A program made the position numbers and the translations under genes. A stretch of 61,817 bases of DNA from Bacteroidales bacterium. GTDB lineage: Bacteria > Bacteroidota > Bacteroidia > Bacteroidales > Marinilabiliaceae. The notes under the pieces are model-generated. The model had not been told where the DNA came from. It ran no database searches and worked only from the letters and a program-made list of their open reading frames with translations. Below, piece by piece: positions 13,851-37,071 of this stretch. Positions within the stretch are counted from its first letter, which is position 1, and every line of letters starts with the position of its first letter. Where the stretch lies: the NCBI GenBank assembly GCA_024401365.1, contig JAKSLE010000009.1, positions 1 to 61,817 on the forward strand, read 5' to 3'.

Positions 13851-13896
13851 AAAAAGCGCCACTCTGCTGTCCGTTTTAAGCAAAGTGACGCCTTTT
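13851..13896 (-). terminator. Strong terminator ending the chemosensory/Sia operon
   Basis: On the minus strand AAGGCGTCACTTTGC folds with GCAGAGTGGCGCTTT into a 15-bp stem (three G-T wobbles), followed by a T run. It lies directly after the last gene of the minus-strand run and before the leuC promoter, which marks the end of the long operon. Confidence 0.85.
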
Positions 13897-13926
13897 ACGT
13901 ATAACTCTTACTCTCAGCGAGTAATC

Positions 13927-14349
13927 TTAGAATTGCTCAACAAGCGAAAGCACAGCTCTAGCACATGCCTCCGACGCATTCTCTGTAGTTACCTTCAATT
14001 TATATGCACCCGTCTTTGTGCACTTGAACTGAAAACCTGTAAATACCTTGCCACCATTAGCATTAGTACCTATCAATGAACCCGCGTTGTCAAGAATCTG
14101 AATCTTGATGTTCTCTCCATTCGATTCACTATTGGCTACATTAATCTGATACTTTGTCTGGCTGTTCAAAACTACCGTAAACGTAACTCCATCAGCTGCA
14201 CCTCCCGCAACCTTCATATCAAAGTCCTTGATATACTGATTGCTTCCCATAGCAGCAAGAGCTTTCTTCATCAAATCCTCACCACACTGTGACGAAGCAA
14301 GAAATGAAAAACCTAATACCGCAGCGAGTATCAAAAATAATCTCTTCAT
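13927..14349 (-). CDS. Small secreted protein, 140 aa
   Basis: A signal peptide of about 21 residues (ending FLASSQ) is followed by a 119-aa mature protein. Two spaced Cys pairs are possible (Cys22, and Cys in FKCTKTG and EACARA). The beta-rich body (FTVVLNSQTKYQINVANSES, then TKTGAYKLKVTTENA) resembles small beta-sandwich pre-peptidase-like or adhesin modules, but no family is assigned. It is the last gene of the long operon, 29 bases after the lipoprotein. It may be a cargo, ligand or periplasmic subunit of the upstream ABC system. Confidence 0.75.
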   Translation of the reverse strand: MKRLFLILAAVLGFSFLASSQCGEDLMKKALAAMGSNQYIKDFDMKVAGGAADGVTFTVVLNSQTKYQINVANSESNGENIKIQILDNAGSLIGTNANGGKVFTGFQFKCTKTGAYKLKVTTENASEACARAVLSLVEQF

Positions 14350-14378
14350 AATCTAATCTCCTTTTCTATAGGGGTTAA

Positions 14379-15302
14379 TTACTCTACTACAAACTGACGA
14401 GCATCTCTTACCTTAGATATAATATCCTTGATAACTGTCTCCTTGTCAGGTGTAAACTCATAATGAGGTATCTCATTCTGCTCAATTACCAACATACCAT
14501 CAACCTCCTTTGTAACAGGCTCGCCGAACTCGTATGTGATACGAACATTATCATACGCATCATTTACTGCATGAATCTTCTCACAGAGCGCCTGGAAATT
14601 CTTGTCTGCCTTAGCAAAATTATCCAATACTACCAAAAGGATCTTTACAATCTCCTTCTGCTCAGCAAGACGATTCGTCAAGTCTGCATCACTTGTCTGC
14701 TCTACAACATCACAGGTGATGTGTACACCCTCTATCCAAGCACCAGCAATAATTGCTGTAGAAGTGTTTGCACGCTTCTGCTCACGAAGGTATCGGTCCA
14801 TCTTATTGAAACTTGTTACAGACAACTGCTTGAGCGAATCCAAGTTTGTCGAATTTGTAGCAAGTCTCTTCAATGTTTGAAAATCTAGGAACTGTCCAAC
14901 ATTAATACCATCTGCTAACTCTTTTACTGCTAGCAAATATTGTACCACAACTGAACTTTTGTTGAAAGTATTTATATATCCAAGGTCAGCACTGTATACA
15001 CCCAAGTTCAATGCACGCTTGAAACTAGAGTTGTAATTCTTCATATTGTCCGCTGGATTCAATACCTTCTCAGAGAAACCTGCACCTGAATTCTTAATAG
15101 AGTTCGCCATCTCTACAGGAGATGAAATGTTCTGAATCATATCATTCACAACATTCTCTGACAACTGGAGAGGAGCATTCGCTACACTGTCAGGTATTTC
15201 ATCTAGTTCATCAACTTTGCTAGAGCTGCAACTAGAGCAACTTGTAATGAAATTGACTCCTGCCAAAAGAGCAAGGCCAAATACAATCTTCTTGATCATC
15301 AT
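14379..15302 (-). CDS. Lipoprotein of unknown function, 307 aa
   Basis: The signal ends ITSC with the lipid-anchored Cys at residue 22, followed by a Ser/Cys-rich linker. The rest is predicted largely helical (for example the segments around residues 50-75, 120-150 and 190-245) with no recognised domain. It lies 19 bases downstream of the TerB-ABC gene and upstream of the small secreted protein, all in one message, so it is most likely an envelope partner of that transporter or the receptor array. Confidence 0.8.
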   Translation of the reverse strand: MMIKKIVFGLALLAGVNFITSCSSCSSSKVDELDEIPDSVANAPLQLSENVVNDMIQNISSPVEMANSIKNSGAGFSEKVLNPADNMKNYNSSFKRALNLGVYSADLGYINTFNKSSVVVQYLLAVKELADGINVGQFLDFQTLKRLATNSTNLDSLKQLSVTSFNKMDRYLREQKRANTSTAIIAGAWIEGVHITCDVVEQTSDADLTNRLAEQKEIVKILLVVLDNFAKADKNFQALCEKIHAVNDAYDNVRITYEFGEPVTKEVDGMLVIEQNEIPHYEFTPDKETVIKDIISKVRDARQFVVE

Positions 15303-15321
15303 ATAATTTACCTTTATGTTA

Positions 15322-18300
15322 TTATTCTACTTTATTTTTCTTAAACGATGGCATCTTTGGCATCTTTATCTTGGCAAACAACGACTTTACCTTGTCAAGC
15401 TGCTTCTTGAATGCTACCGACCCAAAGTAATCCGCAATCCTTCTAGTTACATCATAATATAGTATAGCATACAAGAAGGCTGTAATTACCCAAATCGCAA
15501 CAATGTTGAACCAAAGTGTATCCCAATACGTACCCGCAAAATACTTAACTGGTGCCAAGAAATGCGTGCGGAATGATAATATTCCTTCCGGCTCCGGCAT
15601 CTGATAAATAGGATCAAGTACCTGTATCAGCTTATTACCATCTCTAAGAATCTTATTCTTATCTAACGTCTTACGTACAATATCGTTTAACGTTTCATTA
15701 AAATACTCATCTTTTAATTCGTTGAATCTCTCCTTACGCTGCGGATCACTCTCTATATACCCAATAATAGCATCTCTCTTGTCATTCGAAACTTGATACT
15801 TTTCTGAATATACCGACTTCAATTGCGATATGTACTCTTGAGCATAATTGTATGTCGAAATATTAAACGAATCAGCTACCAACTTGTGCAAGTGTGGGAA
15901 ATCAATCTCAGGATTTCTCATCACCTCCTTGCCTAACTCGTTCTGAACCAACGCCAAATCCATCAGATATGAATCTATCTTCTTTAGCGAATCAAGCGAC
16001 AACTTGTCACTCTTGGCCTTACATCTGTCAAGCGCCTCTTCAAGTTTTGGTAAATAGTATGTACCCTTGTAGTCAGCCATACTAACACCCATCTCACACT
16101 CAAAGAACTTGCTCTGGTATGAATTGTGCTTGTACTGATGTACTATTATTCCCTCATAAGCATACCTGGCAGGTATTACCTCAGCCAACAATGGCACTTT
16201 GTCAACTGATGTAATCAACTTGTTCAACTTGTCAAACGTAAACATCGCACCTCCTAATACCATCTGCGGAATCATGATCAATGGGATCATAATATATATG
16301 GTACCAATCGAATTGAAGGTCGACGATATAATCAAACCAAGTATATTGGAACTTACAGATACCGAGAATAGCATCAGGAAGAACTCAAAGTTCATACCTT
16401 TAAAGCCTATCACTGCATTACCTACCAAAATGAAGAGCGACATCTGTATCGCAGATAAACCCATCAAAATCAAAATCTTCGACATCAAATAGGCCGACCT
16501 CGAAAGGTTGAGGAATTGCTCTCTCTTCAAAATCTTGGCATCCTTAAATATCTCTTCCGCCGATACTATCAAACCAAAGAAGATGGCTACAATAATCGCC
16601 ATGAAGACATAAATAGGAATATTCTCATTCTCACGGAAAATATATTTGTCGGAATCTGGGTCAACTATATATCTAACCAAGAACGCCAACACAAAACCAA
16701 GTATAGGCGCCTCAAGAATATTGAGTACCGTATACTGAGTATTACTTATCTTAGCCCAGAAATCTCGCGTAGTGTAAATCCAAAACTGCTTGAACCAACT
16801 AGGAATATTCAACGACCTAGGTGGCTGCTCTGTAACTGTCTTTACCTTTGGCAACTCTATGTTCTGCTTGAACTTCTCATGCCAGGTGTCTGGCTTTACC
16901 CTTCGCTCATTCTTATAGTTACCATACTCATCCTTTACATTGTCTTCAAGAATATCAAAGACTAACTCCGGATTGAGGTTACCACAACTTGGACACTCAC
17001 CATGCTCAGCATCTTTCTGCTCATCTTGCTTCTTGAAGTACGAAATCGACTCAATAGGCGTACCATAATATACAGGATAACCGCCAGTGTCAAGAATGAA
17101 CATCTTGTCAAACATCTTGTAAATGTCCGACGATGGCTGGTGAATAACTACAAATATCAATTTGCCCTTAAGCGACAACTCTCGCAAAAGGTTCATTACA
17201 TTCTCAGAATCTCGAGACGACAAACCCGAAGTAGGCTCATCGACAAACAAAACTCCTGGCTCACGGATCAACTCCAAAGCAATGTTCAAACGCTTTCGCT
17301 GTCCACCAGAAATCATCTTGTTCAAAGGAGTACCAACAGGCAGATTCCTACGCTCATAAAGACCTAGGTCTGTAAGCGTCTTGCATACCATCTTGTCAAT
17401 CTCTTCCTCACTCTTGTCCTTGAAACAGAGCTTGGCATTGTAATACAGGTTCTGATATACTGTCAACTCCTCTATCAAAAGGTCATCCTGAGGAATAAGA
17501 CCAATAACACCCTCAAGTTCTTCCGACTGAGTGTGAAGGTTCAAGCCATTGATCAATACCTCTCCCTCTGACGGCTTCTCATTTCCACAAAGTACATTGA
17601 GCAGGGTGGTCTTACCCGCTCCCGAAGCACCCATAATACCAATAAGGTGACCTTGCTCTTCGGCTATATTGATGTTTCTCAAACCTATGCCACCGGTCTT
17701 GAACTTGAATCCCATGTTCTTAACCTCAAATGACAATGCCTGAGAGGAAACTTCTTCGTTCTTAAACTTGGCTTCCGCATAGAACCTAGGGATATAGGTA
17801 CCCGAAGGCAACTTTACGTAGCTTCTGTTTGGTAATGGATAAATACGGCCCTGTGCAAGCGGCGTCTTCTCAAGATATACAGTAGAGTTACCTAAATAAC
17901 GAACGAAGAACATGTCCGCACTAGGTATCTTCATAATTATCAAAGACCCATCTAGCTTCGCCGAAATATGCTTAGCTTTTTGTAATTCAAATGCCTCAGT
18001 ATCAGTAACTACAAGTATATCCTCATAGTCCATCTTGGTGTAATCCTCATTGATACTGAATGCACCTATGAGCTCCTCCTCTTCTTTACTGATATTAAAT
18101 ACCTTAGGGTCTGTAATCGTATTGATAATCTCCATACGACCCTCAGTGTACTTCTTCGAGACACTAAGCATCTCATACAAGCGAACGAATACTACTACTC
18201 GCTGCTCTTCTGTCAGCTTCTTGGCTAACTTTCTACACAGACCGAGGATCTTGACGGACTCATTAGATGCAACAACAACCTTACCGTCTTTGTCCGTCTT

Positions 18301-18498
18301 GACAGTCTGCTCAGCTTTCTTCATGAAAGTGCTCAGATACTCGTCAACCGACTCAGCGGCAATTTGTGACTTGAGGAAGAGTCGTACATACTCTATCTCT
18401 GCCTCACTTACACCATCATCTTGCTTGGCAATCAAGCCAAACAATTCCATCAACGCGACTAGAATTTCCTCGCTCATCTGTTTTAGATTAAATCCCAA
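15322..18498 (-). CDS. TerB-like domain / ABCG-type ABC transporter fusion, 1058 aa
   Basis: Residues about 1-150 look like a TerB-type helical domain (LIAKQDDGVSEAEIEYVRLF). About 155-250 is a small beta-rich, FHA-like or PilZ-like segment. About 258-490 is an ABC ATPase with Walker A GASGAGKTT (290-298), signature ISGGQRKRLN and Walker B LFVDEPTSGL, of the ABCG/white subclass. A CPSCGN zinc-knuckle-like motif follows near residue 508. About 590-1035 is an ABC2-type membrane domain with a long soluble insertion before the last membrane helix. It is a half-transporter likely to dimerise and export lipid, glycan or peptide. It follows the SiaC-like gene, which suggests regulation by the phospho-switch. 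Confidence 0.85.
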   Translation of the reverse strand: MGFNLKQMSEEILVALMELFGLIAKQDDGVSEAEIEYVRLFLKSQIAAESVDEYLSTFMKKAEQTVKTDKDGKVVVASNESVKILGLCRKLAKKLTEEQRVVVFVRLYEMLSVSKKYTEGRMEIINTITDPKVFNISKEEEELIGAFSINEDYTKMDYEDILVVTDTEAFELQKAKHISAKLDGSLIIMKIPSADMFFVRYLGNSTVYLEKTPLAQGRIYPLPNRSYVKLPSGTYIPRFYAEAKFKNEEVSSQALSFEVKNMGFKFKTGGIGLRNINIAEEQGHLIGIMGASGAGKTTLLNVLCGNEKPSEGEVLINGLNLHTQSEELEGVIGLIPQDDLLIEELTVYQNLYYNAKLCFKDKSEEEIDKMVCKTLTDLGLYERRNLPVGTPLNKMISGGQRKRLNIALELIREPGVLFVDEPTSGLSSRDSENVMNLLRELSLKGKLIFVVIHQPSSDIYKMFDKMFILDTGGYPVYYGTPIESISYFKKQDEQKDAEHGECPSCGNLNPELVFDILEDNVKDEYGNYKNERRVKPDTWHEKFKQNIELPKVKTVTEQPPRSLNIPSWFKQFWIYTTRDFWAKISNTQYTVLNILEAPILGFVLAFLVRYIVDPDSDKYIFRENENIPIYVFMAIIVAIFFGLIVSAEEIFKDAKILKREQFLNLSRSAYLMSKILILMGLSAIQMSLFILVGNAVIGFKGMNFEFFLMLFSVSVSSNILGLIISSTFNSIGTIYIMIPLIMIPQMVLGGAMFTFDKLNKLITSVDKVPLLAEVIPARYAYEGIIVHQYKHNSYQSKFFECEMGVSMADYKGTYYLPKLEEALDRCKAKSDKLSLDSLKKIDSYLMDLALVQNELGKEVMRNPEIDFPHLHKLVADSFNISTYNYAQEYISQLKSVYSEKYQVSNDKRDAIIGYIESDPQRKERFNELKDEYFNETLNDIVRKTLDKNKILRDGNKLIQVLDPIYQMPEPEGILSFRTHFLAPVKYFAGTYWDTLWFNIVAIWVITAFLYAILYYDVTRRIADYFGSVAFKKQLDKVKSLFAKIKMPKMPSFKKNKVE

Positions 18499-18558
18499 GC
18501 CGACAGATTTTGCTTCCGTCGACCTGGGTTTTATCGTTTATTTTATCTACTCGTGCAG

Positions 18559-18933
18559 TTAGTAAACTACATACTCAAATGGGACTGATACGATATCTTC
18601 ATACTCTTCACCAGCCTCCTTCATGTCCTCCTCATCTTCGTGATAATGCCACTTGATAACTACGTTACCAGCATCGTCATTAATCTCCTCAAACTTCAAG
18701 AGAACATCCAACAACATCTTAGAAGATGCCGTATTAAAGTACTCAAGCTTGAAAATAACGTCCGTATGATCATTCGCTTGCTTGCCGTACTCCTCTATCC
18801 ACTCTAGAACTGGACCATAGAAATCTTGAACATCCTCTGGCAATGAACGACCAGAGAACTCAAAAACGCCATTGTCCTTATCTAAAGTTACACTAGGTGT
18901 ATCGTCAGTACCTTTCTTGCTAAATACTTCCAT
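18559..18933 (-). CDS. SiaC-family regulatory phosphoprotein (DUF1987)
   Basis: 124 aa, the family length. The diagnostic segment is KLEYFNTASSKMLLD with Thr68, the equivalent and same-numbered residue that SiaB phosphorylates in Pseudomonas aeruginosa SiaC. The fold is STAS-like. In Pseudomonas, unphosphorylated SiaC binds and activates the diguanylate cyclase SiaD. No SiaD-like GGDEF gene is present here, so another partner must be used. It lies 26 bases after the SiaB-like gene and 60 bases before the ABC gene in the same operon. Confidence 0.88.
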   Translation of the reverse strand: MEVFSKKGTDDTPSVTLDKDNGVFEFSGRSLPEDVQDFYGPVLEWIEEYGKQANDHTDVIFKLEYFNTASSKMLLDVLLKFEEINDDAGNVVIKWHYHEDEEDMKEAGEEYEDIVSVPFEYVVY

Positions 18934-18959
18934 ATAGTTCTATCTATTGTTGTTCGTGA

Positions 18960-19532
18960 TTAGTTACGCGAAATAGTCGTGATAATAATGAAGAAGCACA
19001 AGTCGTCTGTCAAGTCCTTGAACTGATAGTCAATCTTGTTGCCCGACTTCTTTGCAATGTCAATGAAACCAAGACCTGCTCCTCCCTTGTCCGAGATTCT
19101 GCCTTCCTTGATCTGCTGCTTGTACAATGCAGAGAGACCTTCCTTGTCTAGTGAGTTGATGTACTCAAGGTTCTTCTCCAATTTCTCTTTCTTCTCGCGC
19201 TTAACAACGTTACCCGTAATTACGTTATAGCACTCCTCGCCATGACTCACGAGAACAATGCCCCGATGTTCCTCGTTCTCATCATCACTCATAGGATCAG
19301 CATGCTTGCTGATATTCTGCAAACACTCAACCATAACGTTAAAGACCTTACGCTGAACTTGGTTAGACTCTTCTATCTTAGCCATGTTCTTCTCAGTCAT
19401 TGCAGTGAAGGTACGTGTAATCTCTTGTGTAACCACACCTTCGTAAACGAGATTAATCTCGTTTGCCTGCATCGTGTGATACAATTGATACGCGAACTCC
19501 AAAAAATCTTGATTGCCAGCTATTTTAGTCAT
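18960..19532 (-). CDS. SiaB-family protein kinase (GHKL-type ATPase)
   Basis: 190 aa. A GHKL N-box is visible in FNVMVECLQNISKHAD (Glu and Asn for Mg-ATP) and a G-box in DKGGAGLGFIDIAKKSG. SiaB proteins are single-domain kinases that phosphorylate SiaC on Thr, opposed by the PP2C phosphatase SiaA. Here the phosphatase gene lies immediately upstream (45-base gap) and SiaC immediately downstream, the order A-B-C of the Pseudomonas sia operon. It is cytoplasmic, with no membrane segment. Confidence 0.87.
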   Translation of the reverse strand: MTKIAGNQDFLEFAYQLYHTMQANEINLVYEGVVTQEITRTFTAMTEKNMAKIEESNQVQRKVFNVMVECLQNISKHADPMSDDENEEHRGIVLVSHGEECYNVITGNVVKREKKEKLEKNLEYINSLDKEGLSALYKQQIKEGRISDKGGAGLGFIDIAKKSGNKIDYQFKDLTDDLCFFIIITTISRN

Positions 19533-19577: not shown

Positions 19578-22223
19578 TTATAATTCAACTCCAATTAGCA
19601 AAACATCGTCATCTTGTAGTACGTCCCCACTCCAAATAGCAGGACCTACCCACTCACTGAACTGCTTTTCGATCTCTCTCTTAGCTTCTTTCATTGTTTT
19701 GTCTTTTGTCAAATCAATAAAATCTCTCACGCGCTTTGCCTGAAATTTCTTTCTTGGATCGTCTGTGCCACCTCGTTGGTCAGTCAATCCATCAGAGAAT
19801 ACGAAAAATCTGTCTCCAGGTTCGTAATTTATGACAATATTTTCAAAAGGCTTCTCTGGTTTGCCCGCTAATGGCACACCTCCAATGCCTTTTCTCGCTC
19901 CTGCATATTCCGTCAATTCACCATTCCTGAGGTAGTACATAGGCCTGTGTGCACCCGAGAATTGAAGCTCTTTCTTGTCCAAATCTATCCTGCAAAGTCC
20001 TAAGTCCATGCCTTCATGACCGTTCGAACTGCCCTCTTCTTGCCTCAAGGTCCTTCTTACAGCCTCATGCAACTGCGTCAAAATCTCCGCCGCTGTCAAA
20101 TCATGCCCGTGATCTACAATGTTGGTCAACATCAAATAACCAATAATAGACAAAATAGAACCTGGCACACCATGACCCGTACAGTCTACAGCCGCAATAT
20201 AGTGAACATTTTCCCACGTAAAATACCAAGGGAAGTCTCCAGATACCACATCCTTAGGCCTATACATCATAAACGAGTTAGGGAAGGTCTGCTGGAAGGT
20301 CGACTCTTCTGGCATAATCGCCATCTGAATACGGTATCCATAGTTGATACTGTCTTCCATACGCTTCTTCTGGTACGAAATTTCTTTCTCAATACGCTTG
20401 AGCTCCGTAACATCATGCGCTGTAAACAATACCGACTCTATCTCCTGACTCTCGCCAAACTCAGGGATGGATTTTATCTCTACCGTACGCAACTCATCGT
20501 TAATCATAATCTCCATCTCATTGCTTGTCTGCTTATGAGACCTCTTGACATCTTTCAATGTCGCAAGCAGATATGAAACGAATTCTACGTTGGTCTCCAA
20601 ATCCGACATCTTGGCGTTCAACAATGTGACCGCATCCGATTGGAAGAATTTACATACAACAGGGTTCACATAAACCATCTTACCATTCATGCTGGTACGG
20701 ATGATCATATCGGGAGAGTTCTCCGCCAAAGATTGCATTCGCGATTTCATGCGCTCCTCTCGCTCTGCTCTCTTTCTCTCTGTGATATCTCGTGTATTAA
20801 AGACAAGTCCCCTGATGGCTGGGTCATGCAAAAGGTTCTTACCCTGAGACTCAAGGTATATCTTCTCACCATTCTTCTTCAGGTATGTGTACTGCTCCAT
20901 CGACTCACCACCAGGCGTAGACAATAGGTAGTCAAACATAGCCGAAACATCTCGGTATCCCTTCGGAGTCATCATGTCCTCATCCATACCATGAACATTG
21001 ACATCATCATCGTCATAGCCAAGAATACGCTTGATCGATGGACTCTCAAATGTTACCTCCCTGTCTTCATTGTATATCGAGATAAACTCCGAAGCATTGG
21101 TCAACAACGCCTGAAGTTTCTTCTGTCCAAACTCTACCTCCTTAATCTTCGCATCGAGCTCCTTGTTACTTGCCTCAAGGTTCTCTTGCGCTATCATCAT
21201 CTCTTGAGCATTCTGATGCAACTGCTCCTCGTTCTTCTTGAGGGTAGATGTCATCTCCTGAGATTCTTTCAATAGTCGCTCTGTCAACTGGTTGATCTTC
21301 AGGTTGAAGATGGTACTACCTACAATCGAACATATCTCTTCTGCTAACGTCAGATAGTGCTGTGGCAACTTGTTCCTCAGGAATGACAACTCTATAACGC
21401 CCTGAAGAAGAGAGTCTTCATTCAAGAGAGGTATCAGAAGGAGCGACTTAGGCTTCTGGTCATTCAACAGACCAGATGTAATCGTAAAATAATCTTCTGG
21501 TATCTCTGTACGGTATATCAACTTCTTCTCATATGCTACCGCACCTACCAAACCATAGCCAACTTTAATGGAGGTCTGCTCGTATCGCCTTCTGTTATAT
21601 GCGTATTGCGTTACCGTCGTAAGTGTCTGACCATCATTCTCCAAAAGATAAAAGGCTCCCTGGGCAGCTTCATAGTACTTGACAATGCCTTGCAATGCTT
21701 CAACCGCCAACTCTTCTGTTTTATTATTGACACGGACAATATCAGATACAGTTTCCTTACCTTTTGCTACCCAACTGAGTTGTCGCTCTTTCTCTTTCGT
21801 GTTCAAAAGGTTGTTGCCCAACGTCATCAAGGTCCTCTGCAACTCAGAGTTTGCATCTTGCTTGACGTCTATCTGCTGCCCAGCTCCAATCTTTCCAGCA
21901 ATGACAATACTTGTATCAATCTGAGATTTCAAGTCCGATACCTCGTTCTGGAGAGCATCAAGCTTTATCTTCTTGTAGTTCTGTATATATAGGAATAGAA
22001 ATGGTACCGCACATATCACAATATCAAAAAACCACACAAACATGAAATTGTGTATATATATGATATTGCTCAATGAAACGCCAAATCCTAATAGGCTCAT
22101 TATCGAAGCCCAACCTATCAACAAAATAGCTAGGACTCCAATCAAGGCAACATACCACTGTACCTCTGTAAAACCTTTCAGAGATATATATCTAAAGTCT
22201 ATTGAACTCTTTTCTTTACCCAT
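19578..22223 (-). CDS. Membrane GAF/PAS/PP2C (SpoIIE-type) phosphatase, SiaA-like
   Basis: I chose the start at 22223 (MGKEKSS), which leaves a 16-base gap to the upstream gene. A longer frame from 22265 would overlap it. The 881-aa protein has two or three N-terminal membrane segments (to about 90), a coiled coil, a GAF domain (about 165-300, with IPEDYFTITSGL), a second coiled coil, two PAS domains (about 365-600) and a PP2C/SpoIIE domain (about 640-881). Metal-binding acids are visible in VSGDF, DCTGHGVPGS and FSDGLTDQ. SiaA of Pseudomonas dephosphorylates SiaC, and this is the natural equivalent here with cytoplasmic sensory domains replacing the periplasmic sensor. Confidence 0.87.
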   Translation of the reverse strand: MGKEKSSIDFRYISLKGFTEVQWYVALIGVLAILLIGWASIMSLLGFGVSLSNIIYIHNFMFVWFFDIVICAVPFLFLYIQNYKKIKLDALQNEVSDLKSQIDTSIVIAGKIGAGQQIDVKQDANSELQRTLMTLGNNLLNTKEKERQLSWVAKGKETVSDIVRVNNKTEELAVEALQGIVKYYEAAQGAFYLLENDGQTLTTVTQYAYNRRRYEQTSIKVGYGLVGAVAYEKKLIYRTEIPEDYFTITSGLLNDQKPKSLLLIPLLNEDSLLQGVIELSFLRNKLPQHYLTLAEEICSIVGSTIFNLKINQLTERLLKESQEMTSTLKKNEEQLHQNAQEMMIAQENLEASNKELDAKIKEVEFGQKKLQALLTNASEFISIYNEDREVTFESPSIKRILGYDDDDVNVHGMDEDMMTPKGYRDVSAMFDYLLSTPGGESMEQYTYLKKNGEKIYLESQGKNLLHDPAIRGLVFNTRDITERKRAEREERMKSRMQSLAENSPDMIIRTSMNGKMVYVNPVVCKFFQSDAVTLLNAKMSDLETNVEFVSYLLATLKDVKRSHKQTSNEMEIMINDELRTVEIKSIPEFGESQEIESVLFTAHDVTELKRIEKEISYQKKRMEDSINYGYRIQMAIMPEESTFQQTFPNSFMMYRPKDVVSGDFPWYFTWENVHYIAAVDCTGHGVPGSILSIIGYLMLTNIVDHGHDLTAAEILTQLHEAVRRTLRQEEGSSNGHEGMDLGLCRIDLDKKELQFSGAHRPMYYLRNGELTEYAGARKGIGGVPLAGKPEKPFENIVINYEPGDRFFVFSDGLTDQRGGTDDPRKKFQAKRVRDFIDLTKDKTMKEAKREIEKQFSEWVGPAIWSGDVLQDDDVLLIGVEL

Positions 22224-22239
22224 ACCCTTCCTGACGTAG

Positions 22240-29860: not shown

Positions 29861-30727
29861 TTATATTCGTTTAAATATTGTTGGCTTTATATTCTTTAAA
29901 GGTACTTCCATGTTTGCTACCGATTCCGAGTGTCCTATAAATAGATAACCTCCCGAAACTAGGTGTCTGCATAACTTGTTGATTACCTTTTCTTGCGTCT
30001 CCCTATCAAAGTATATCAGAACGTTCCTGCAGAATATCACATCGTACATCTCTTTGATATCATACTGATTATCCATCAAATTGAGATACTTCAACGATAT
30101 ATTCTTCTGTAACTCAGGCGATACCCTGACAGTCGGATTGTGTCTGTCTTTGCTCCTGTAAAAATATTTCTTCTTCAGAGCTAACGGTATTACGTCTATA
30201 GTCCGTTCCGCATATATTCCTTTTACGGCCTTATCCATAACATTGTTTGAAATATCAGTGCCTAAAATCTGATACCCCATGTCAGGATACTTCTCCATAA
30301 ACTCATGAAGTACTATGCTGATCGTGTATAACTCTTCTCCACTCGAACAGGCAGCACTCCATATTTTTACCTTCCTCTTCCCTTCTTCCCTCATCTCAGG
30401 TAGCACATTGTTCGATAAATAATCAAAATGTACAGGCTCCCTGAAAAAATCTGTCTTGTTCGTCGTTACTACACTGAGAAAATTATAAAGCTCTTTCTCT
30501 TGACCTTCCGGACTGAAAAAATATTCTTTATACTCAGAATAGTTCCTCATCCCTAATTCCCTGATTCGCTTCAACAACCTCCCTTGCAACATAACACGCT
30601 TGATCTCTGGCATCTTAATACCATATCTAGTGTAGATATAGTCACTAAATACCATGAAATCTTCCTTCGACATTTCTGCCTTGAAAACATCAATATCTTC
30701 AGATGCTATTTCGTGTTGCTGCGCCAT
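29861..30727 (-). CDS. cheR: Chemotaxis protein methyltransferase CheR
   Basis: 288 aa. Canonical CheR with TDFFREPVHFDYL, SAM loop KIWSAACSSGEELYT, LGTDISNNVMDKA and FCRNVLIYFDRETQ. It transfers methyl groups from SAM to receptor glutamates. Of the three CheR-type genes in this operon it is the most standard and the likely partner of the single MCP, whose C-terminal EYERF fits a CheR-binding pentapeptide. Confidence 0.94.
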   Translation of the reverse strand: MAQQHEIASEDIDVFKAEMSKEDFMVFSDYIYTRYGIKMPEIKRVMLQGRLLKRIRELGMRNYSEYKEYFFSPEGQEKELYNFLSVVTTNKTDFFREPVHFDYLSNNVLPEMREEGKRKVKIWSAACSSGEELYTISIVLHEFMEKYPDMGYQILGTDISNNVMDKAVKGIYAERTIDVIPLALKKKYFYRSKDRHNPTVRVSPELQKNISLKYLNLMDNQYDIKEMYDVIFCRNVLIYFDRETQEKVINKLCRHLVSGGYLFIGHSESVANMEVPLKNIKPTIFKRI

Positions 30728-30752: not shown

Positions 30753-31226
30753 TCAACCTTCTTGCATGTTCTTCATGCATATAATGTCTGTATCGGTAAA
30801 TACCTTATCAACATCTATCGCCAAAACCATCTTGTCATCTGCTCCATGCGTGGCAAACGCAACATAGCCCGGCTTGTATGAATTGACAATACTTTGCTTG
30901 TCTTCAGCACTTACCTCTATTATGTCCGAAACATAATCTACTACTATGGCAACATGAAACTCATCGGCTTTGCCAGGATTAACCGCCAAAACAATGACAC
31001 ATGTCTGCTCTTTTATCTCTATAGGAGATAAGCCAAACTTCAAGCCCGAGTCAATCAATGGCACTACCCCATCTCGGTGCTCAATAAGTCCCTGCAAGTA
31101 TGGTAATGTGGACTGTCGCGTCTTTGGCGCTTGATACTCTAGTATCTCTACCACATTATTAACACTCACAGCAAATGTATTGTCACTTGACTGAAATGTC
31201 AGATATGCATTTATTTGTTCTTCCAT
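30753..31226 (-). CDS. cheW: CheW coupling protein (second of two)
   Basis: 157 aa, single CheW SH3-like domain: NAYLTFQSSDNTFAVSVNNV at the start, LPYLQGLIEHRDGVVPLIDS, and VDYVSDIIEVS near the end. CheW links receptor tips to CheA. It is adjacent to another CheW (12-base gap). The two differ clearly, so they may couple different receptors, such as the MCP and the PAS/GAF protein. Confidence 0.92.
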   Translation of the reverse strand: MEEQINAYLTFQSSDNTFAVSVNNVVEILEYQAPKTRQSTLPYLQGLIEHRDGVVPLIDSGLKFGLSPIEIKEQTCVIVLAVNPGKADEFHVAIVVDYVSDIIEVSAEDKQSIVNSYKPGYVAFATHGADDKMVLAIDVDKVFTDTDIICMKNMQEG

Positions 31227-31237: not shown

Positions 31238-31699
31238 TTAATTCTCAACGACTTTCGCCAAATCAGCTATATTGATAGTATAGACAAACTTGTCGTCTTT
31301 CTTTATTGTACCACTAAGCGTCCCTTGTACCTGCTCACTTATCTGCATTACTACATCCTTAGTCCAACTTTCTGGCGCATAATCAAACACGTCATCTACT
31401 TCATCTACTAAGAAACCTAGCAAACTGTCATTAGATTCGTCAGTAGATACTATGACAATAGAGGCCTCAGGATGATCTTCATCGTTCTTAATGCCAAACA
31501 ATACTGACGTATCTATCACAGGTACCATGTTACCATGGTTGTTTATCACTCCCATGATATACTCTTTCGATAGCGGTACATTCGTAGGCTCAACATACTC
31601 CAAAATGTGACGAATCTTCATCGTCTCAAATGCAAAGTACTCACCTGCTATCTTAAAGGTGGTAACTGATGTAGTTGTATTTTCTATAATCTCTGCCAT
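31238..31699 (-). CDS. cheW: CheW coupling protein (first of two)
   Basis: 153 aa CheW-type domain with VTTFKIAGEYFAFETMKIRH, VPLSKEYIMGVINNHGNMVP and GFLVDEVDDVFDYAPES. It lies 14 bases after cheA, the most common position for the main array adaptor. Cytoplasmic. Confidence 0.92.
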   Translation of the reverse strand: MAEIIENTTTSVTTFKIAGEYFAFETMKIRHILEYVEPTNVPLSKEYIMGVINNHGNMVPVIDTSVLFGIKNDEDHPEASIVIVSTDESNDSLLGFLVDEVDDVFDYAPESWTKDVVMQISEQVQGTLSGTIKKDDKFVYTINIADLAKVVEN

Positions 31700-31712: not shown

Positions 31713-33794
31713 CTATTTTTTATTCTGCTGCTTCTTGTTGCGCAACATATTGTTGTAGTTGATCAATCTCGTAGTATCAATAATCAATGACAACGAACCA
31801 TCACCCATTACCGAAGCTCCTGATATCATATCAACTTTTCGCAAGAATCTGCCAAGTGGCTTAACCACAATCTGATACTCACCAATTATCTGGTCAATAA
31901 CCATTCCTACATGCTTATCGCCATTCTTTACCAATAGTATCTTGGACTTTTGTATGTCCTCTACCGGTTTGTAGTAGAACAAATTGTTCAAATCTATGAA
32001 CTGAACCTGCTCACCATTATATGTAAAGATATTGCCTATACCATTCTCGTTGAACTTGACCTCCTGAGGATTCAAAATCCTCTCAATGTTCGACAATGGG
32101 AAGATAAACTGCTCGTCGTTTATCTTGGTCAACAAACCATCAATAATCGAAAGCGTCAACGGAATGTCAAGCGTCAATGTAGTACCTTGATCTATCTCTG
32201 AATCTACCGAAACTTCTCCTCTGACTTCCTGAATCTTACTCTTAACTACGTCCATACCTACACCACGACCACTGACGTCACTGACCTTCTCAGCTGTAGA
32301 GAATCCACTCGCAAAAATCAAGTTGAGAATCTCTTGCTTCGTCATCTTGGCACTGGCATCTACTACTCCCTTTTCAACCGCCTTTGCAAATATCTTCGCA
32401 GGATCCATACCCTTACCATCATCAATAATTTGAATGACTACATTGGATCCTGAATAGAATGCCTTTAATAATATAGTACCCTTAGGATTCTTACCCTTCT
32501 TGATACGCTCATCTGGCATCTCTATACCATGGTCTCCTGAGTTTCGAATAATATGAAGCAATGGATCTATCAAGTGCTCAATAATATTCTTATCAAGCTC
32601 AATGTCTCCTCCTTCAACTACAAACTCAAGCTGCTTTCCAAGTTTGTTGCTTAGGTCTCGTACCAAACGCTGGAAACGAACTAGCTCACCTTGCAAAGGA
32701 ACCAAACTCATCTCAAACGACGTCTCACGAAGCTGACGGGTGATCTTTTCCATCTGCTCAGTAATCGATGCAAAGGCCTCATTGTTACTCTTAGAAGCTA
32801 TCAGATTCAACTGGGCTTGCATCGTCACTAGTTCACCTACAGCATTTACCAACTCATCTATCTTGGCTGATGAAACACGCTGCGTGGCAATCTTCGCCGT
32901 CTCTTGTTGTTGCTGCTTGGCTTCTGGCTTAGCCGACGCCACCGCAGCTTGCTTAACTACCTTGAATACATCAAAATCTTCTTTCTTGAGCATCACACCA
33001 GTGCTGTGCGCATTGGCCATCATCTCAGGAAGTTTATCCGTATTGCTTACAATGTCGCCCTTTGGCAACTCGGTTATCTCAACCTTACAGTCATCTTCTA
33101 CAAAGATGAATACATCCTTAATGTCATTTACATCCTGGTCCGTCTGCAATACCACCTGCCACTTAATACGCATGGCCAATGGCTCAAACTCCATAAACGG
33201 ATGAACATCCTGAAGATACGATACCGTCTTAGCCTCTCCCAACGCCATCAAGTCTTCTATTATGAAGAGCGGATTGGTACCATTGCTAAGAAGATTCTCA
33301 AAAGGCTCAAAATTTACTAGGTAGTTCTTTGGTCCAGCCTCTTCTTCTTTCTCAACCTGTGGTTGAGCCGCTTGCTGCTGTCCCGCTTTGTTCGGATTGA
33401 CATAAAGACCTTCACCAGGCGCAAAGTGCGCTTGCAACCTCTTGATGTAATCTTGCTGATGCGCTATGTCGTCTGGATCCGTCAACTGCCCCTTCTCTAA
33501 CAAGAGTCGTATGTAATCCAAACTCTCAAACGTAAGCGAAATTATATCTTTGGTAACCTTGATCTTGTCATTCCTGATATGATCATAGATTGTCTCTAGA
33601 TTATGAGTGAAATTACTCAAATCATTAAAACCAAACATAGCACCACCACCCTTGATGGTGTGCATAGATCTAAAGAGTCGCTCAATGATCTCTTTGTTCT
33701 CAGGATCATTTTCCAACTCAAATAGAGCCTCCTCGATACTGGCAACATTGTCTGTAGCCTCTTCGACAAATTTCTGCTGAAACCTATCTAACAT
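31713..33794 (-). CDS. cheA: Chemotaxis histidine kinase CheA
   Basis: 693 aa. P1 HPt domain with phospho-accepting His45 in RSMHTIKGGGAMFG. A middle P2-like domain (about 155-250, with NPLFIIEDLMALGEAKTV). Dimerisation P3 and GHKL P4 domain (LLHIIRNSGDHGIE, then DDGKGMDP and GRGVGMDVVKS). A C-terminal CheW-like P5 (about 550-690). It is a complete class II kinase able to phosphorylate CheY and CheB. The 132-base gap to cheY holds a weak hairpin (33892-33913). No motility genes are nearby, so its output is probably not a flagellar motor. Confidence 0.95.
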   Translation of the reverse strand: MLDRFQQKFVEEATDNVASIEEALFELENDPENKEIIERLFRSMHTIKGGGAMFGFNDLSNFTHNLETIYDHIRNDKIKVTKDIISLTFESLDYIRLLLEKGQLTDPDDIAHQQDYIKRLQAHFAPGEGLYVNPNKAGQQQAAQPQVEKEEEAGPKNYLVNFEPFENLLSNGTNPLFIIEDLMALGEAKTVSYLQDVHPFMEFEPLAMRIKWQVVLQTDQDVNDIKDVFIFVEDDCKVEITELPKGDIVSNTDKLPEMMANAHSTGVMLKKEDFDVFKVVKQAAVASAKPEAKQQQQETAKIATQRVSSAKIDELVNAVGELVTMQAQLNLIASKSNNEAFASITEQMEKITRQLRETSFEMSLVPLQGELVRFQRLVRDLSNKLGKQLEFVVEGGDIELDKNIIEHLIDPLLHIIRNSGDHGIEMPDERIKKGKNPKGTILLKAFYSGSNVVIQIIDDGKGMDPAKIFAKAVEKGVVDASAKMTKQEILNLIFASGFSTAEKVSDVSGRGVGMDVVKSKIQEVRGEVSVDSEIDQGTTLTLDIPLTLSIIDGLLTKINDEQFIFPLSNIERILNPQEVKFNENGIGNIFTYNGEQVQFIDLNNLFYYKPVEDIQKSKILLVKNGDKHVGMVIDQIIGEYQIVVKPLGRFLRKVDMISGASVMGDGSLSLIIDTTRLINYNNMLRNKKQQNKK

Positions 33795-33926
33795 CTTTGG
33801 TTTAGTTTGGTGTGTGATACTTGTTAATTCATCTCATACCTAGTACAACTAGTAATAACATCATCTTTATTTATTAATACAGATAATGCCTCATAGGTAT
33901 ACTAACGCCTATGTCGTGACAGCTCT

Positions 33927-34292
33927 TTATCGAACTACACGCGAAATGGCACTCAAAAGCTTAGCTGGTACAAATGGCTTGATAATCCATCCTGTAGCAC
34001 CCGCCTCTTTTGCCTCCATCTTCTTCTCCGTCTGTGACTCTGTAGTCAAGAACAAGATTGGAATGTGCTTATATGCGTCCATCTCTCTGATCTTACGAAT
34101 AAGACCAAGACCATCAAGGTTTGGCATGTGAAGGTCTGTGATAACTATATCTATCGCACGACCATCCAAAAACTTCAATGCGTCTTCTCCATCAACACCT
34201 ACAAGTACATCGTAACCCTCATTCTGAAGTGTGAAGTTTACAACCTCACGAATACTTTCAGAGTCGTCTACTATTAATACTGTCTTTGCCAT
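33927..34292 (-). CDS. cheY: Single-domain response regulator CheY
   Basis: 121 aa receiver domain: acidic pair in VDDSES, phospho-acceptor Asp53 in VITDLHMPNLDG, conserved Thr in FLTTES, and Lys in WIIKPF. It is the direct CheA target in this operon. There is no DNA-binding output, and the effector it binds is unknown. The STAS protein encoded 25 bases upstream is one candidate partner. Confidence 0.93.
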   Translation of the reverse strand: MAKTVLIVDDSESIREVVNFTLQNEGYDVLVGVDGEDALKFLDGRAIDIVITDLHMPNLDGLGLIRKIREMDAYKHIPILFLTTESQTEKKMEAKEAGATGWIIKPFVPAKLLSAISRVVR

Positions 34293-34317
34293 ATTAGTAT
34301 ACTTTGTTATTTTATTC

Positions 34318-34629
34318 TTATTGGTTAAGTGAATCTATCGTGATGCCCGCTTTCGTAAGCAGTGCAGTCAAATCTTCTGGTAACGTAGTGGCTATCGTCA
34401 ACTTCTTGCCACTTGCTTTCCACGCCGATTTCATAGATAGCACAAGTTGTACAAATGTAATATCAACATTGTCAGGATTCTCAACTGTTAAGCATACATC
34501 TTCTTCAGGTGATATCTGACTCTTCAACTCATCATATATCTTTTCAATATGATTGATGATAATGCTGCCCGTCAAGCGAACTTGCTTGGCACCATCTTTC
34601 TCTGTTACTTCTACACTGTACGAACTCAT
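34318..34629 (-). CDS. STAS-domain protein, 103 aa
   Basis: A single STAS fold (KQVRLTGSIIINHIEKIYDE, then VCLTVENPDNVDITFVQLVL). STAS proteins such as SpoIIAA are phosphorylated on Ser/Thr at a DSSG-like site. Here that position reads DITFVQ, leaving only a Thr as possible acceptor. It lies between the receptor gene and cheY, which is an unusual place for a STAS protein. It could bridge the chemosensory array to the downstream Sia kinase/phosphatase pair. Confidence 0.83.
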   Translation of the reverse strand: MSSYSVEVTEKDGAKQVRLTGSIIINHIEKIYDELKSQISPEEDVCLTVENPDNVDITFVQLVLSMKSAWKASGKKLTIATTLPEDLTALLTKAGITIDSLNQ

Positions 34630-34642
34630 AATAGCTTATCTT

Positions 34643-36421
34643 TTAGAATCGTTCATATTCGTTCATATCAAACTCCTTCGATGCAATATTGCCAAGCTCT
34701 ATGGTAGTACCTGTCTTATGGGTGGCCGACTTGCCTCCCTTTACTTCCATGTCTGTCTTGGTCTCAATATTCACCTTGGTAGTTGGCTGCGCTTGAACAA
34801 CTTTTGGCTGTGGCTCTGCCGAGTCTTCCTTGTCAAGGTCTATCTTAACTGTATTCTCAGCCTCAATCTTGCTCTTCTCATCAAGCTTGAAGAAACTTAC
34901 AGCATTCTTTAAGTTGTCTGCCAACTGACTCAACAATACACTTGAATTTGTCAACTCATCCGAAGAACTTGCATTCTCCTGTGTAATAACATTCAAATTC
35001 TGCATTGCCATGTTGATCTGCTCAGCACCTGTCTTCTGCTCAATAGATGCAGCCGAAATCTCCTTGATAAGTACCGTAGTCTTCTCAATGTCTGGTACAA
35101 GCTGCTTTGCCTTGTCTCCAGCCATCTGCGAAACCTTCATACCCTTGTTCACCAAACCTACAATCTCATTGGCAGCTTGCTTGCTTCGCTCAGCCAACTT
35201 TCGTACCTCAGCTGCAACTACCGAGAAACCTCTACCATGCTCTCCAGCACGTACAGCCTCTACAGCAGCATTCAATGCCAAGATATTTGTCTGGAACGCA
35301 ATATCACTGATAATTGTAATCTTCTGACTGATAATGTTCATAGCCTCAGCAGCTTCGTTAGAATACTGACTCGACAATGTAACATTCTCTGCTGTCGATG
35401 CCGTGATCTTCTCAGTAGCTATCGCATTCTCTGTGTTCTGATCAATATTGGCAACCATCTCTTCAATGGCTGTCGATACCTCCTCAGCACTGGCCGCCTG
35501 CTCACTAGCACCCTTGCTCAACTTGAGTGAACTGCTCTTCAATGAGTCTCCCGAATCTACAAGGTCATTGGCATTCTGCTCAATTGTAATTACAATATTC
35601 TTCAAGTTGGTAACCATGTCTTGCAATGCACGAGACAACTGACCAATCTCATCTTCCGAATCTACATTTACCGTCGCCGTCAAATCTCCATTTCCAATGG
35701 CTTGCGCAAACTCAACTCCCTTCTTCAATGGCGCTACTATCGACCTGTAAAGAATATATCCTACCGATACCGACATCGCTATTACTAACAACGACATGAT
35801 AATCACAAATACCAACTGGATAATGTTCCATGTCGAAATGGTATCCTTAATATCATCACACTTCTCATCACAACTTGATACCAACTTGCTCATGAGACCT
35901 TGCAACTCTTCTTCTGCAAGCGGAATGTCTCCACCATCTTCTACTAAACCGTCTACCTCAGCCCTGATCATCATGTCCTCATAAGCATCAAATGAGTCAA
36001 GACTCGTCATGACAGTCTTCTCTAACTCAAATAACTCATGAACCTTATTGTCAACTAAACCAAGTGTATCAATAAAACTCTGATCCCAATTTGATGTGGC
36101 CTCTTTTACCGATGCTAATACTTCATCAAAATCAGTATTCACAATCTTAGCCAACTTCTCCTTGTCTGGAGATATAGGCTGCATATCAACATAAACCCAA
36201 TTCACACTGAGTCGCTTCGACTCAGTTATGAGGTTCATCATGGAAGTCAAGTTGTTCTTAACTGGCAAATATTGCCCCGTCTCCTCTTCCTGCAACGAAC
36301 GCGTGTAAATGTGTATGCATATCGTAAATACAGCATTAATAAGGATGAACACCAATATAGCACCGAAACCCGCTAAAAGCTTCTGCGCTATATTCAATTT
36401 AAGATTCCCAAATAGTTTCAT
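34643..36421 (-). CDS. Methyl-accepting chemotaxis protein with C-terminal tether pentapeptide
   Basis: 592 aa. Membrane helix 1 (about 11-33), a periplasmic four-helix-bundle domain (about 35-195), membrane helix 2 (about 198-222), HAMP, and a long cytoplasmic coiled coil whose tip reads [20 protein letters not shown]. The last five residues are EYERF. They fit the CheR/CheB-binding consensus x-aromatic-x-x-aromatic (NWETF in Escherichia coli) and sit at the end of a roughly 60-residue disordered tail. It is the only receptor in the window. The YfiR-like periplasmic protein encoded just upstream is a candidate ligand or co-sensor. Confidence 0.94.
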
Positions 36422-36448
36422 CGTCTATCGTGTCTAGTAAATGTATTC

Positions 36449-36970
36449 TTACAAATTTATAGCTCCGGTCATAGTACCCAACTTGGCACTAAACTGTACA
36501 CCAGATATAGAGGCATTCTTACTATGTAACTCAAATTTCAAAATGTCATCTCGTACAACAAAATTAATCATAGATCCCTTGCTCGTAGCACCATCAACCT
36601 CAGTGATTATCAATGTATTCTTGCCTACAACACTCATCAACTTCTCACTGTTCTTGTTGAAGTTACCACCAGATCCTACAAAAATTACCTGACAGTCCTC
36701 TACATCATCAATACTCTTGAACTCTTTTATAACAATGTCTTGATATCCAAACTTCTTTCCTGTCGATAACTTCGTCAACCATGAAACAAGTTCGTGCTCT
36801 TTTAAAACACCTATAACAAAGTCTCCTTGTCTCACCTCTTCCGCCCATCCGATATATCGAATGAAGTTGAAGGTAAGCATGGCCTTTGCTTTCTGTACAT
36901 TTTGAGCTTGTGCACATAATGGCATAAGCATCAAAAACAATATAAATACAATCTTTTTCATAAACCTCAA
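36449..36970 (-). CDS. YfiR-family periplasmic protein (DUF4154)
   Basis: 173 aa with a signal peptide (MRFMKKIVF to AQAQ, about 22 aa). Family marks are AMLTFNFIRYIGWAEE, FVIGVLKEHELVSWL, CQVIFVGSGG and ITEVDGATSKGSMINFV. In Pseudomonas YfiR is a periplasmic repressor that binds the diguanylate cyclase YfiN and responds to redox or envelope stress. No YfiN is present. As the first gene of the operon, 27 bases before the MCP, it probably binds the MCP periplasmic domain instead (inference). Confidence 0.85.
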   Translation of the reverse strand: MRFMKKIVFILFLMLMPLCAQAQNVQKAKAMLTFNFIRYIGWAEEVRQGDFVIGVLKEHELVSWLTKLSTGKKFGYQDIVIKEFKSIDDVEDCQVIFVGSGGNFNKNSEKLMSVVGKNTLIITEVDGATSKGSMINFVVRDDILKFELHSKNASISGVQFSAKLGTMTGAINL

Positions 36971-37012
36971 TCCTTTAAATTATACGATAATATTGACTAA
37001 CTGCCTATTTTA

Positions 37013-37070
37013 AATACCAACGTATAGGTGGTATTAATGCCAAAGTTAAATTTTTTGACTATTAATACCA
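37013..37070. promoter_or_regulatory. Inverted repeats around the operon promoter, candidate operator
   Basis: AATACCA (37013-37019) and TGGTATT (37029-37035) form a 7-bp inverted repeat just downstream of the -7 box. GGTATTAAT (37030-37038) and ATTAATACC (37061-37069) form a second 9-bp pair that brackets the -7 box and overlaps the -33. Three copies of one half-site around a promoter suggest a dimeric regulator. Confidence 0.5.
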
Positions 37071-37071
37071 A
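37041..37071 (-). promoter_or_regulatory. Predicted promoter of the chemosensory/Sia operon
   Basis: On the minus strand TTG (37069-37071), 20 bases, then TAACTTTG (37041-37048): a full Bacteroidetes -33/-7 pair. It lies about 70 bases before the YfiR-like ATG and just after the ribF stop. Confidence 0.75.

Follow-up and report, generated by a model that had tools for sequence, protein, structure and literature searches.

Which cellular process is controlled by a complete chemosensory array whose genes lie in one row with a Ser/Thr phospho-switch and an ABC exporter? This question is raised by a stretch of 61,817 nucleotides (hereafter, the window) from a Bacteroidales bacterium of the family Marinilabiliaceae (assembly GCA_024401365.1, contig JAKSLE010000009.1). 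The gene order kept in relatives suggests that here the target of chemotaxis-type machinery may be surface export and not a flagellum. The reading favored below, to which we give slightly less than an even chance, is that the array feeds a Ser/Thr partner switch with the ABC exporter as effector.

Organization of the Operon

All 22 minus-strand genes that the preliminary description placed between a promoter and a terminator are present, from 13927 to 36970 (Table 1), and its claim of mostly short gaps agrees with the junctions: 19 of 21 measure at most 45 nt, two of them being overlaps, and the remaining two are CheY–CheA (132 nt) and SiaC–exporter (60 nt, or 81 nt with the better ATG of the exporter). 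The distal boundary forms an 18-pair hairpin followed by Ts; with a loop of 10, it is beyond the limit of the terminator scan (8) and is therefore not listed there. At the other end, the element at 37071-37041 presumably belongs to the Bacteroidota -33/-7 promoter type, and the alternative site at 37007-36979 has a 10/12 match level that is frequent by chance. Since a strong hairpin lies between SiaC and the exporter, a single uniform transcript is not assured. A genomic-island reading was discarded, the GC content being flat (0.411 in the operon versus 0.434 and 0.386 in the flanks).

Table 1. Genes and candidate transcription signals of the operon, in order of transcription.
Feature	Position	Strand	Basis
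Promoter-like element TTG-N20-TAACTTTG	37041..37071	-	read from sequence
Alternative candidate sigma-70-like site	36979..37007	-	10/12 matches, sigma-70 scan, same gap
YfiR/HmsC-like secreted protein (better ATG at 36961)	36449..36970	-	PF13689 2.3e-26
MCP: HAMP, signalling domain, C-terminal xYERF tail of CheR-docking type	34643..36421	-	PF00015, PF00672
STAS protein, D-I-T-F motif	34318..34629	-	PF13466 1.2e-8; motif conserved
CheY	33927..34292	-	PF00072 2.9e-28
CheA	31713..33794	-	Hpt, H-kinase_dim, HATPase, CheW domains
CheW 1	31238..31699	-	PF01584
CheW 2	30753..31226	-	PF01584
CheR of array	29861..30727	-	PF01739 8.8e-60
Soluble histidine kinase, conserved between CheR and CheD	28949..29848	-	PF02518 3.8e-27
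CheD	28464..28937	-	PF03975
CheB with receiver	27267..28421	-	PF01339, PF00072
Membrane GAF-PAS-PAS protein	25406..27250	-	domain profiles
CheR2	24565..25371	-	PF01739 6.6e-30
Degenerate CheR-like protein	23749..24552	-	PF01739 1.6e-8
CheB2, methylesterase domain alone	23163..23723	-	PF01339 6.2e-49
Membrane protein, GAF-like via relatives' similarity to other GAF proteins	22240..23163	-	local alignments
SiaA-like PP2C phosphatase with GAF and PAS (better ATG near 22223)	19578..22265	-	SpoIIE 9.4e-20; PDB 6k4e 2.4e-30
SiaB-family kinase	18960..19532	-	NF038262 172 bits, cut-off 85; PDB 6kko_A 2.1e-16
SiaC-family phosphoprotein, Thr68	18559..18933	-	PF09345 1.7e-39; PDB 6kko_C
14-pair hairpin, poor T tail	18494..18528	-	fold, terminator scan
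ABCG-type exporter, N-terminal TerB and predicted FHA-like domains, start at conserved MSEE	15322..18477	-	PF00005, PF01061
Lipoprotein-like helical protein	14379..15302	-	no Pfam match; conserved near exporter
Small secreted protein	13927..14349	-	Por_Secre_tail 4e-4, under cut-off; conserved in family
Intrinsic terminator	13851..13896	-	computed fold, -24.2 kcal/mol

The Chemosensory Array

Profile matches recover every member of a chemosensory array (MCP, CheA, CheW, CheY, CheR, and CheB), and Pfam confirms the whole Che set named earlier, including the second CheW, CheD, and the STAS protein. The earlier list is extended by a YfiR-like first gene, for which a sequence search against the PDB gave no credible relative, as well as by a histidine kinase, two GAF-type proteins, two further CheR-like genes, and a second CheB. 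One of the GAF-type proteins (22240..23163) matches in Pfam just DUF1003, under the cut-off (9e-5). In the MCP, the HAMP-to-tip distance is 120 residues, which would fit a 36-heptad receptor (possibly chemosensory class F7), and the xYERF tail is kept in an alignment of nine family loci.

The Sia Switch and the Exporter

The SiaABC assignment is likewise upheld by profiles and PDB sequence matches, which identify a PP2C phosphatase, a SiaB-family kinase, and a SiaC homologue; equivalog cut-offs are missed by all three (SiaA 145/700 bits, SiaB 91/225, SiaC 86/150). Residue 68 of the window's SiaC is Thr, and the motif NTxSSK appears in 20 of the 21 relatives displayed in the alignment, where L151 is represented by a different stretch. 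A profile search gave no receiver domain in the window's SiaA.

As to the TerB domain claimed for the exporter, five of seven exporter relatives match the Pfam profile (best 2.6e-9) and the window protein itself stays under the cut-off (0.0018), so that the assignment is supported by the relatives and by the fold. Beside TerB, the modeled N-terminus is predicted to adopt an FHA-like fold, for which a Foldseek search at E 0.001 returned no structural relative. In a 46-sequence exporter alignment, the FHA phosphate-binding residues (Gly-Arg, Ser-x-x-His) are not visible by eye, and the sole conserved FHA-like feature, LNG, is lost in the window protein. The genome carries a second exporter copy. 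Of 35 exporter loci, 30 have the lipoprotein-like gene in the same stretch, and its fold, modeled from three sequences (pLDDT 71), has no structural match at E under 0.6. A defence-system reading was dropped after PADLOC returned generic ATPase matches to the exporter alone and none for the other seven proteins scanned.

Conservation of the Linkage

The 22-gene order is kept in three other genomes of the family (G251, in which CheW1 is split over two frames, G432, and G526) and, judged by this recurrence, is more than chance. Linkage was counted at CheD loci (n = 80), leaving out L193-L210 (unannotated), loci with non-Bacteroidota titles, and the Chloroherpeton MAG L167; among the 36 non-family loci, 10 with under 7.5 kb downstream were set aside and 26 were testable. 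Exporter loci (35) and SiaB loci (20) were hand-picked, mostly one high-scoring match per family. ORFs were chosen by length with overlap removal, a procedure that can miss genes under longer opposite ORFs (the CheY of G251 was recovered separately).

Within the Marinilabiliaceae, the Che-to-SiaA part is found in six of seven CheD loci, the contig of the seventh ending inside SiaA, and SiaB and SiaC come after SiaA in five of those six. The exception is L136, where SiaA is followed by an ORF on the opposite strand and neither SiaB nor SiaC is present in the remainder of the locus. L137 branches inside the family's Che clade and lacks Sia genes within 10 kb. Outside the family, SiaA–SiaB–SiaC–exporter lies downstream of CheB on the same strand in 6 of the 26 testable Bacteroidota loci, and the other 20 have no Sia genes downstream. 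The conserved linkage holds for the family and for some of the phylum and is not universal. The sensory module has relatives in the named strains Geofilum rubicundum and Alkaliflexus imshenetskii.

Mapped onto the Che tree, linked Sia–exporter cassettes occur in four separate positions, namely the family and three outside it. One Che clade (L148, L151, L156, and L160; support 1.0) has two different exporter lineages at the same position; since the Che and exporter trees disagree, the cassette was seemingly re-attached or swapped in place, and within this clade it seems to have been replaced in place. The SiaA of L148 fuses a receiver (3e-21) to PP2C, that of L151 has the same composition with a receiver just under its cut-off (5.8e-7), and L083 has a receiver-PP2C fusion beside CheA; at E 0.001, no receiver appears in the SiaA of L156 or in either SiaA copy of L160. 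Judged by domain composition, the fusions in two of the six non-family linked loci are the most direct candidate link from CheA to Sia that was found.

These fusions, together with a cassette attached at several places and swapped in place behind CheB, argue against a reading of the operon as a surface regulon of co-expressed genes with parallel inputs, the Che output acting elsewhere and SiaA reading only its own GAF/PAS domains and CheR2/CheB2. The same reading would account for CheR2-CheB2 adjoining Sia in the CheW-less L219, L220, L260, L265, and L266, for the array without Sia in L137, for the lack of a receiver in the window's SiaA, and for the hairpin between SiaC and the exporter; all in all, we consider it unlikely.

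Co-Occurrence across the Class

Among 295 class genomes, SiaB and the exporter occur together in 154, the exporter only in 3, SiaB only in 19, and neither in 119 (uncorrected for kinship); position lists for matches across these genomes are lower bounds (at least). CheW is absent from 147 of the 154 genomes with both. Sia plus exporter is, therefore, a widespread common core, mostly without Che, to which Che is an added input. At the genome level, co-occurrence of Che and SiaB is not above chance (8/12 versus 165/283, p 0.77), and it is only their physical linkage that exceeds it: SiaB lies within 15 kb of che in four of seven CheW genomes with SiaB, the own genome left out, with a rough chance, ignoring kinship, of 2e-5 for one che locus per genome or 2e-3 for three.

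The strong co-occurrence of SiaB and exporter also bears on the reading that SiaC acts, as in Pseudomonas, on a cyclase or transcription factor, the exporter being a bystander. P. aeruginosa SiaC activates SiaD, according to PMC8457831, and the four SiaC copies of the own genome could have other targets. However, the own genome (87% complete), the only one searched, gave 0 GGDEF matches, hence no SiaD-type cyclase or Wsp-type regulator was found and a Pseudomonas-like c-di-GMP output was discarded; we regard the bystander role as highly improbable. Because of this result, the TerB and putative FHA-like N-terminus, and the kept Thr68 of SiaC, the exporter is the likelier effector.

Motility

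The preliminary description noted that no motility genes are in the window, which is correct for the window and fails as a pointer against motility, since SprA and a GldJ relative are encoded elsewhere in the genome. SprA occurs in all 12 CheW-bearing class genomes; GldJ is above its cut-off in G251, G432, and G526 (6/14 genomes in all), and the own genome's relative is full length with 438 bits against a cut-off of 458. Judged from these genes, gliding is likely and its control by the array possible. Flagellar or pilus control was set aside, with FlhA (the flagellar export gate) in 0/12 CheW-bearing genomes and only pilus ATPase matches under the cut-off in the own genome (assembly 87% complete).

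The array may then steer gliding, with the type IX motor as the target of CheY and a co-transcribed Sia–exporter part supplying slime or adhesin without direct phospho-crosstalk. Besides SprA and GldJ, the high identity of CheY across nine family loci (88-98%, versus 49-77% for CheA in the eight of them read whole) fits this proposal, as if CheY bound a conserved target, and a phosphorylated CheY-like domain (PorX) binds GldL, according to PMC10951265. However, the SiaB–exporter pair needs no array in the 147 genomes without CheW, and the receiver-PP2C fusions point to a direct link; we rate the proposal as rather unlikely, if somewhat better placed than parallel inputs.

Proposed Mechanism and Related Systems

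For the favored reading, wiring of the array into the partner switch, the protein-protein interactions, the direction of control, and the cargo are all proposals. A ligand, which the YfiR-like periplasmic protein might deliver, would act on the MCP, and CheA/CheW would phosphorylate CheY, with adaptation via CheR, CheB, and CheD. The phosphoryl signal of the array, the GAF/PAS inputs, and the CheR2/CheB2 set would bias SiaA (phosphatase) against SiaB (kinase), and this balance would set the phosphorylation of SiaC at Thr68. As the window's SiaA has no receiver, the link from CheA would run through CheY or another protein. SiaC would gate the exporter via its cytoplasmic TerB/FHA-like N-terminus, and exporter, lipoprotein, and small secreted partner would move surface material. 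The earlier proposal that receptor input controls surface export through two linked phosphorylation systems is partly supported, by the conserved linkage and the receiver-PP2C fusions in linked loci; it needs revising in view of the usual occurrence of Sia–exporter without Che, CheR2/CheB2 beside Sia in CheW-less genomes, and the departures of L137 and L136. The narrower claim, that the array drives the switch and a phosphothreonine protein directly gates a TerB/FHA-like exporter in a genome with no c-di-GMP synthase detected, is put forward tentatively, as appreciably less than an even chance.

Like SiaABCD of P. aeruginosa, matched through solved structures by sequence, the switch has a PP2C phosphatase, an HATPase-type kinase, and a Thr68 phosphoprotein. 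Unlike in SiaABCD, SiaA here has GAF/PAS (or, among some relatives, a receiver), no diguanylate cyclase was found, and an ABC exporter follows SiaC with a Che array before the switch. Wsp and Dif are chemosensory systems with other cellular functions and, as here, their complete Che array is not tied to a flagellum; unlike these, the present array has no GGDEF response regulator and adjoins a Ser/Thr switch and an exporter. Also comparable is HsbR-HsbA of Pseudomonas, a receiver-PP2C protein plus STAS switch fed by a histidine phosphorelay, which is not known to include a Che array or an exporter.

The Hmp system of Nostoc punctiforme acts on type IV pili, in cyanobacteria; to our knowledge, it includes neither SiaC nor a TerB exporter. 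It is similar in combining chemotaxis-like genes with a phosphatase-kinase-STAS switch (HmpU/HmpW/HmpV), and PMC8256260 and PMC13104615 describe both as controlling surface motility and polysaccharide. In the ABC transporter Rv1747, the FHA I domain reads a phosphothreonine of Rv2623 (PMC5549992). The exporter with an FHA-type domain and a phosphothreonine protein proposed here, from genes and fold, is comparable, whereas TerB, a non-canonical FHA-like fold, and a Sia-type kinase and phosphatase set it apart. The nearest published idea found is that of PMC9239204, which proposes for Campylobacterota a receiver-PP2C-kinase that acts, via a STAS protein, on a chemoreceptor. In the partly covered literature, including PMC7647112 and PMC12239597, no description was found of Che with Sia or of Sia with an ABC exporter.

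Implications

If the favored mechanism is true, SiaABC would gain an effector outside c-di-GMP, plus a chemoreceptor input. Under the narrower claim, about half of the sampled class genomes (154/295) would use the Sia–exporter unit as a general output, with other sensors feeding it. Little is understood about how the environment controls the rotary surface machine of gliding Bacteroidota, and the operon is a concrete, testable sensory module for these bacteria.

Gene row, boundaries and protein integrity

The operon region has a uniform GC content. Its upstream neighbour is ribF, with the same orientation, and aconitase-type genes follow it downstream. Strong hairpins in the SiaC–exporter gap, possibly an attenuator or processing site, occur in four of the eight loci folded (the window, L148, L151 and L160; mononucleotide shuffles).

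Features of the gene row and of related loci
Feature	Sequence	Position	Strand
Promoter-like element TTG-N20-TAACTTTG	Window	37071-37041	minus
Second promoter candidate, sigma-70-like site	Window	37007-36979	minus
Row filled by 22 genes	Window	13927-36970	minus
Genes 1-11, listed as transcribed: YfiR-like secreted protein, MCP, STAS, CheY, CheA, CheW, CheW, CheR, histidine kinase, CheD, CheB	Window		minus
Genes 12-16: GAF-PAS-PAS membrane protein, CheR2, degenerate CheR, CheB2, GAF-like membrane protein	Window		minus
Genes 17-22: SiaA-like phosphatase, SiaB, SiaC, ABC exporter, lipoprotein-like protein, small secreted protein	Window		minus
SiaC–exporter hairpin	Window	18494-18528	
Strong terminator	Window	13851-13896	minus
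Small CheA-Hpt-like gene (PF01627, 1.4e-7) in the CheY–CheA interval	L133	4789-5187	
Conserved ~205-aa protein between CheB and SiaA	L151	11950-12570	
Same	L148	4469-5080	
Same	L156	6564-7184	
Same	L160	4701-5318	

Pseudomonas aeruginosa proteins of known structure align with SiaC, SiaB and the phosphatase domain of SiaA, and the SiaC threonine of the window is residue 68; the same site of P. aeruginosa SiaC is set by SiaA and SiaB (PMC7647112). The STAS motif D-[ILV]-T-[FC] is kept in the window and nine relatives. In the nine other family MCPs examined, the C-terminus reads YE[RK] and then F or Y, a tail of the CheR-docking type. As for domain length, many SiaB-domain ORFs among the matches listed are far longer than SiaB (open frames of ~370-720 aa), which suggests fusions or tandem domains, and the proteins with a SiaC-like domain at L044 (367 aa) and L220 (377 aa) are three times as long as usual.

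Host genome and conservation within the family

The assembly (3.05 Mb, 76 contigs, the window lying on contig C76) is 87% complete, and within this content the only CheW domains are the three of the operon and GGDEF has no match. SiaC is present in four copies; the three outside the operon lie on C22 (SiaB–SiaC) and C28 (two SiaC near a PP2C gene). In the CheD scan, the nearest relative is MAG47, titled Marinilabiliaceae (88% identity), followed in order by Breznakibacter, Marinilabiliaceae JC017, Geofilum, Alkaliflexus, Carboxylicivirga and Marinilabilia, of which those not titled Marinilabiliaceae presumably belong to that family.

The Che/Sia/exporter gene unit proposed in the preliminary description is borne out in the family: all 22 genes stand in the same order in genomes G251, G432 and G526, which with the own genome are all the same-family genomes in the draw from the order, among the matches listed. 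Between their CheY and CheA, these three genomes carry an additional Hpt-like gene, and CheW1 of G251 is split over two frames. ORFs similar to the L133 Hpt-like gene occur at the same place in L134, L135, L136, L147, L212, L213 and L036; none is listed in L131 or in the window, where the gap is 132 nt. CheY identity is 88-98% across nine family loci, and that of CheA 49-77% across the eight read whole. The PP2C part of SiaA is present in six of seven family CheD-scan loci (the seventh contig ends inside SiaA), and SiaB and SiaC come next in five of these six; in L136 an opposite-strand ORF follows SiaA, and SiaB and SiaC are absent from the rest of the locus. The Che array of L137, nested in the family clade, has no Sia genes within 10 kb. 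Second CheA–CheW clusters without nearby Sia genes are found in G251:C17 (L037) and G432:C12 (L215).

Linkage beyond the family

Linkage to Che recurs in part of the phylum. Of 36 non-family Bacteroidota CheD loci, the testable set is the 26 whose downstream sequence spans at least 7.5 kb; SiaA, SiaB, SiaC and the exporter follow CheB on the same strand in six (L139, L146, L148, L151, L156, L160), no Sia genes lie downstream in the other 20, and L136 and L137 depart within the family. A Sia–exporter–lipoprotein cassette also adjoins a Che array in G220 and G230. In G187, SiaA begins ~10 kb and SiaC ~13 kb after CheA of a second array type, with other genes intervening. This different type, whose CheA matches that of the window over ~400 aa only, adjoins Sia-type genes in G187:C24, G230:C148/C122 and G106:C144.

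Across 295 class genomes, SiaB is found in 173, the exporter (E 1e-100) in 157 and CheW in 12. SiaB and the exporter occur together in 154 genomes, the exporter alone in three, SiaB alone in 19 and neither in 119 (Fisher 2e-57, not corrected for kinship); co-occurrence of CheW with SiaB is not above chance (8 of 12 CheW genomes, p 0.77). In 35 hand-picked exporter loci, the lipoprotein is present in 30 and SiaB or SiaC, within the fetched stretch, in 16. Judged by genome content, Sia plus exporter is the core. The CheR2–CheB2 pair adjoins Sia in genomes that lack CheW, namely at L219 and L220 and in three of 20 further SiaB loci (L260, L265, L266), L219 and L266 being of the same genus. Since Sia and exporter are common without Che, and CheR2–CheB2 also neighbours Sia where CheW is lacking, we regard the operon as most likely built from four blocks: the array, a CheR2/CheB2/GAF input block, the SiaABC switch and the exporter trio.

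Possible routes from the array to its output

The SiaA of L148, which stands between CheB and SiaB–SiaC–exporter, consists of a receiver (3e-21) joined to PP2C; the receiver of L151 SiaA (5.8e-7) falls just below the cut-off, and none is found in L156 SiaA or in either L160 copy (E 0.001). In L083, CheA and CheR precede a receiver–PP2C protein reaching the contig end. Through a phosphatase-borne receiver, CheA would be expected to reach SiaC; the window SiaA carries GAF and PAS in its place, so its link to CheA is putative. The ~205-aa protein between CheB and SiaA looks CheC/CheX-like by eye, with no Pfam match in the L151 copy, the only one tested, and similar-sized CheA neighbours in L084 and L086 have Pfam CheC matches.

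The preliminary description had noted no motility genes in the window. FlhA has no match in any of the 12 CheW genomes; pilus ATPase is over the cut-off in four of the 12, and not in the own genome. SprA is present in 12/12, and GldJ passes the cut-off in three genomes of the family and narrowly misses it in the own genome, which makes gliding likely in the host. Thus, steering of gliding by CheY stays a strong rival to signalling from CheA to SiaC, with a precedent in PorX, whose CheY-like domain is able to bind GldL (PMC10951265).

Probable repeated association of array and cassette

In the Che tree (52 taxa), linked loci fall at four places, the family counted as one and the deeper branches being weakly supported, whereas the exporter tree (46) gathers all linked exporters in a single 18-leaf clade (support 1.0). 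In this hand-picked sample, 11 of the 18 leaves inside that clade are in or beside Che loci, versus none of the 28 outside. By its exporter, locus L146 groups with Marinilabiliaceae (0.996), but in the Che tree its partner is L186 (0.966). Two exporter lineages occur within the Che clade L148/L151/L156/L160 (1.0). We read this conflict as a sign that cassettes of one kind were probably attached repeatedly or exchanged in place.

Each part of the operon is of a known kind, and among the matches listed no description of the Che, Sia and exporter combination was found in the literature. The gene unit is real, conserved in the family and recurring in part of the phylum; we infer its mechanism, and such repeated attachment or exchange would be difficult to account for if array and cassette had no functional tie.
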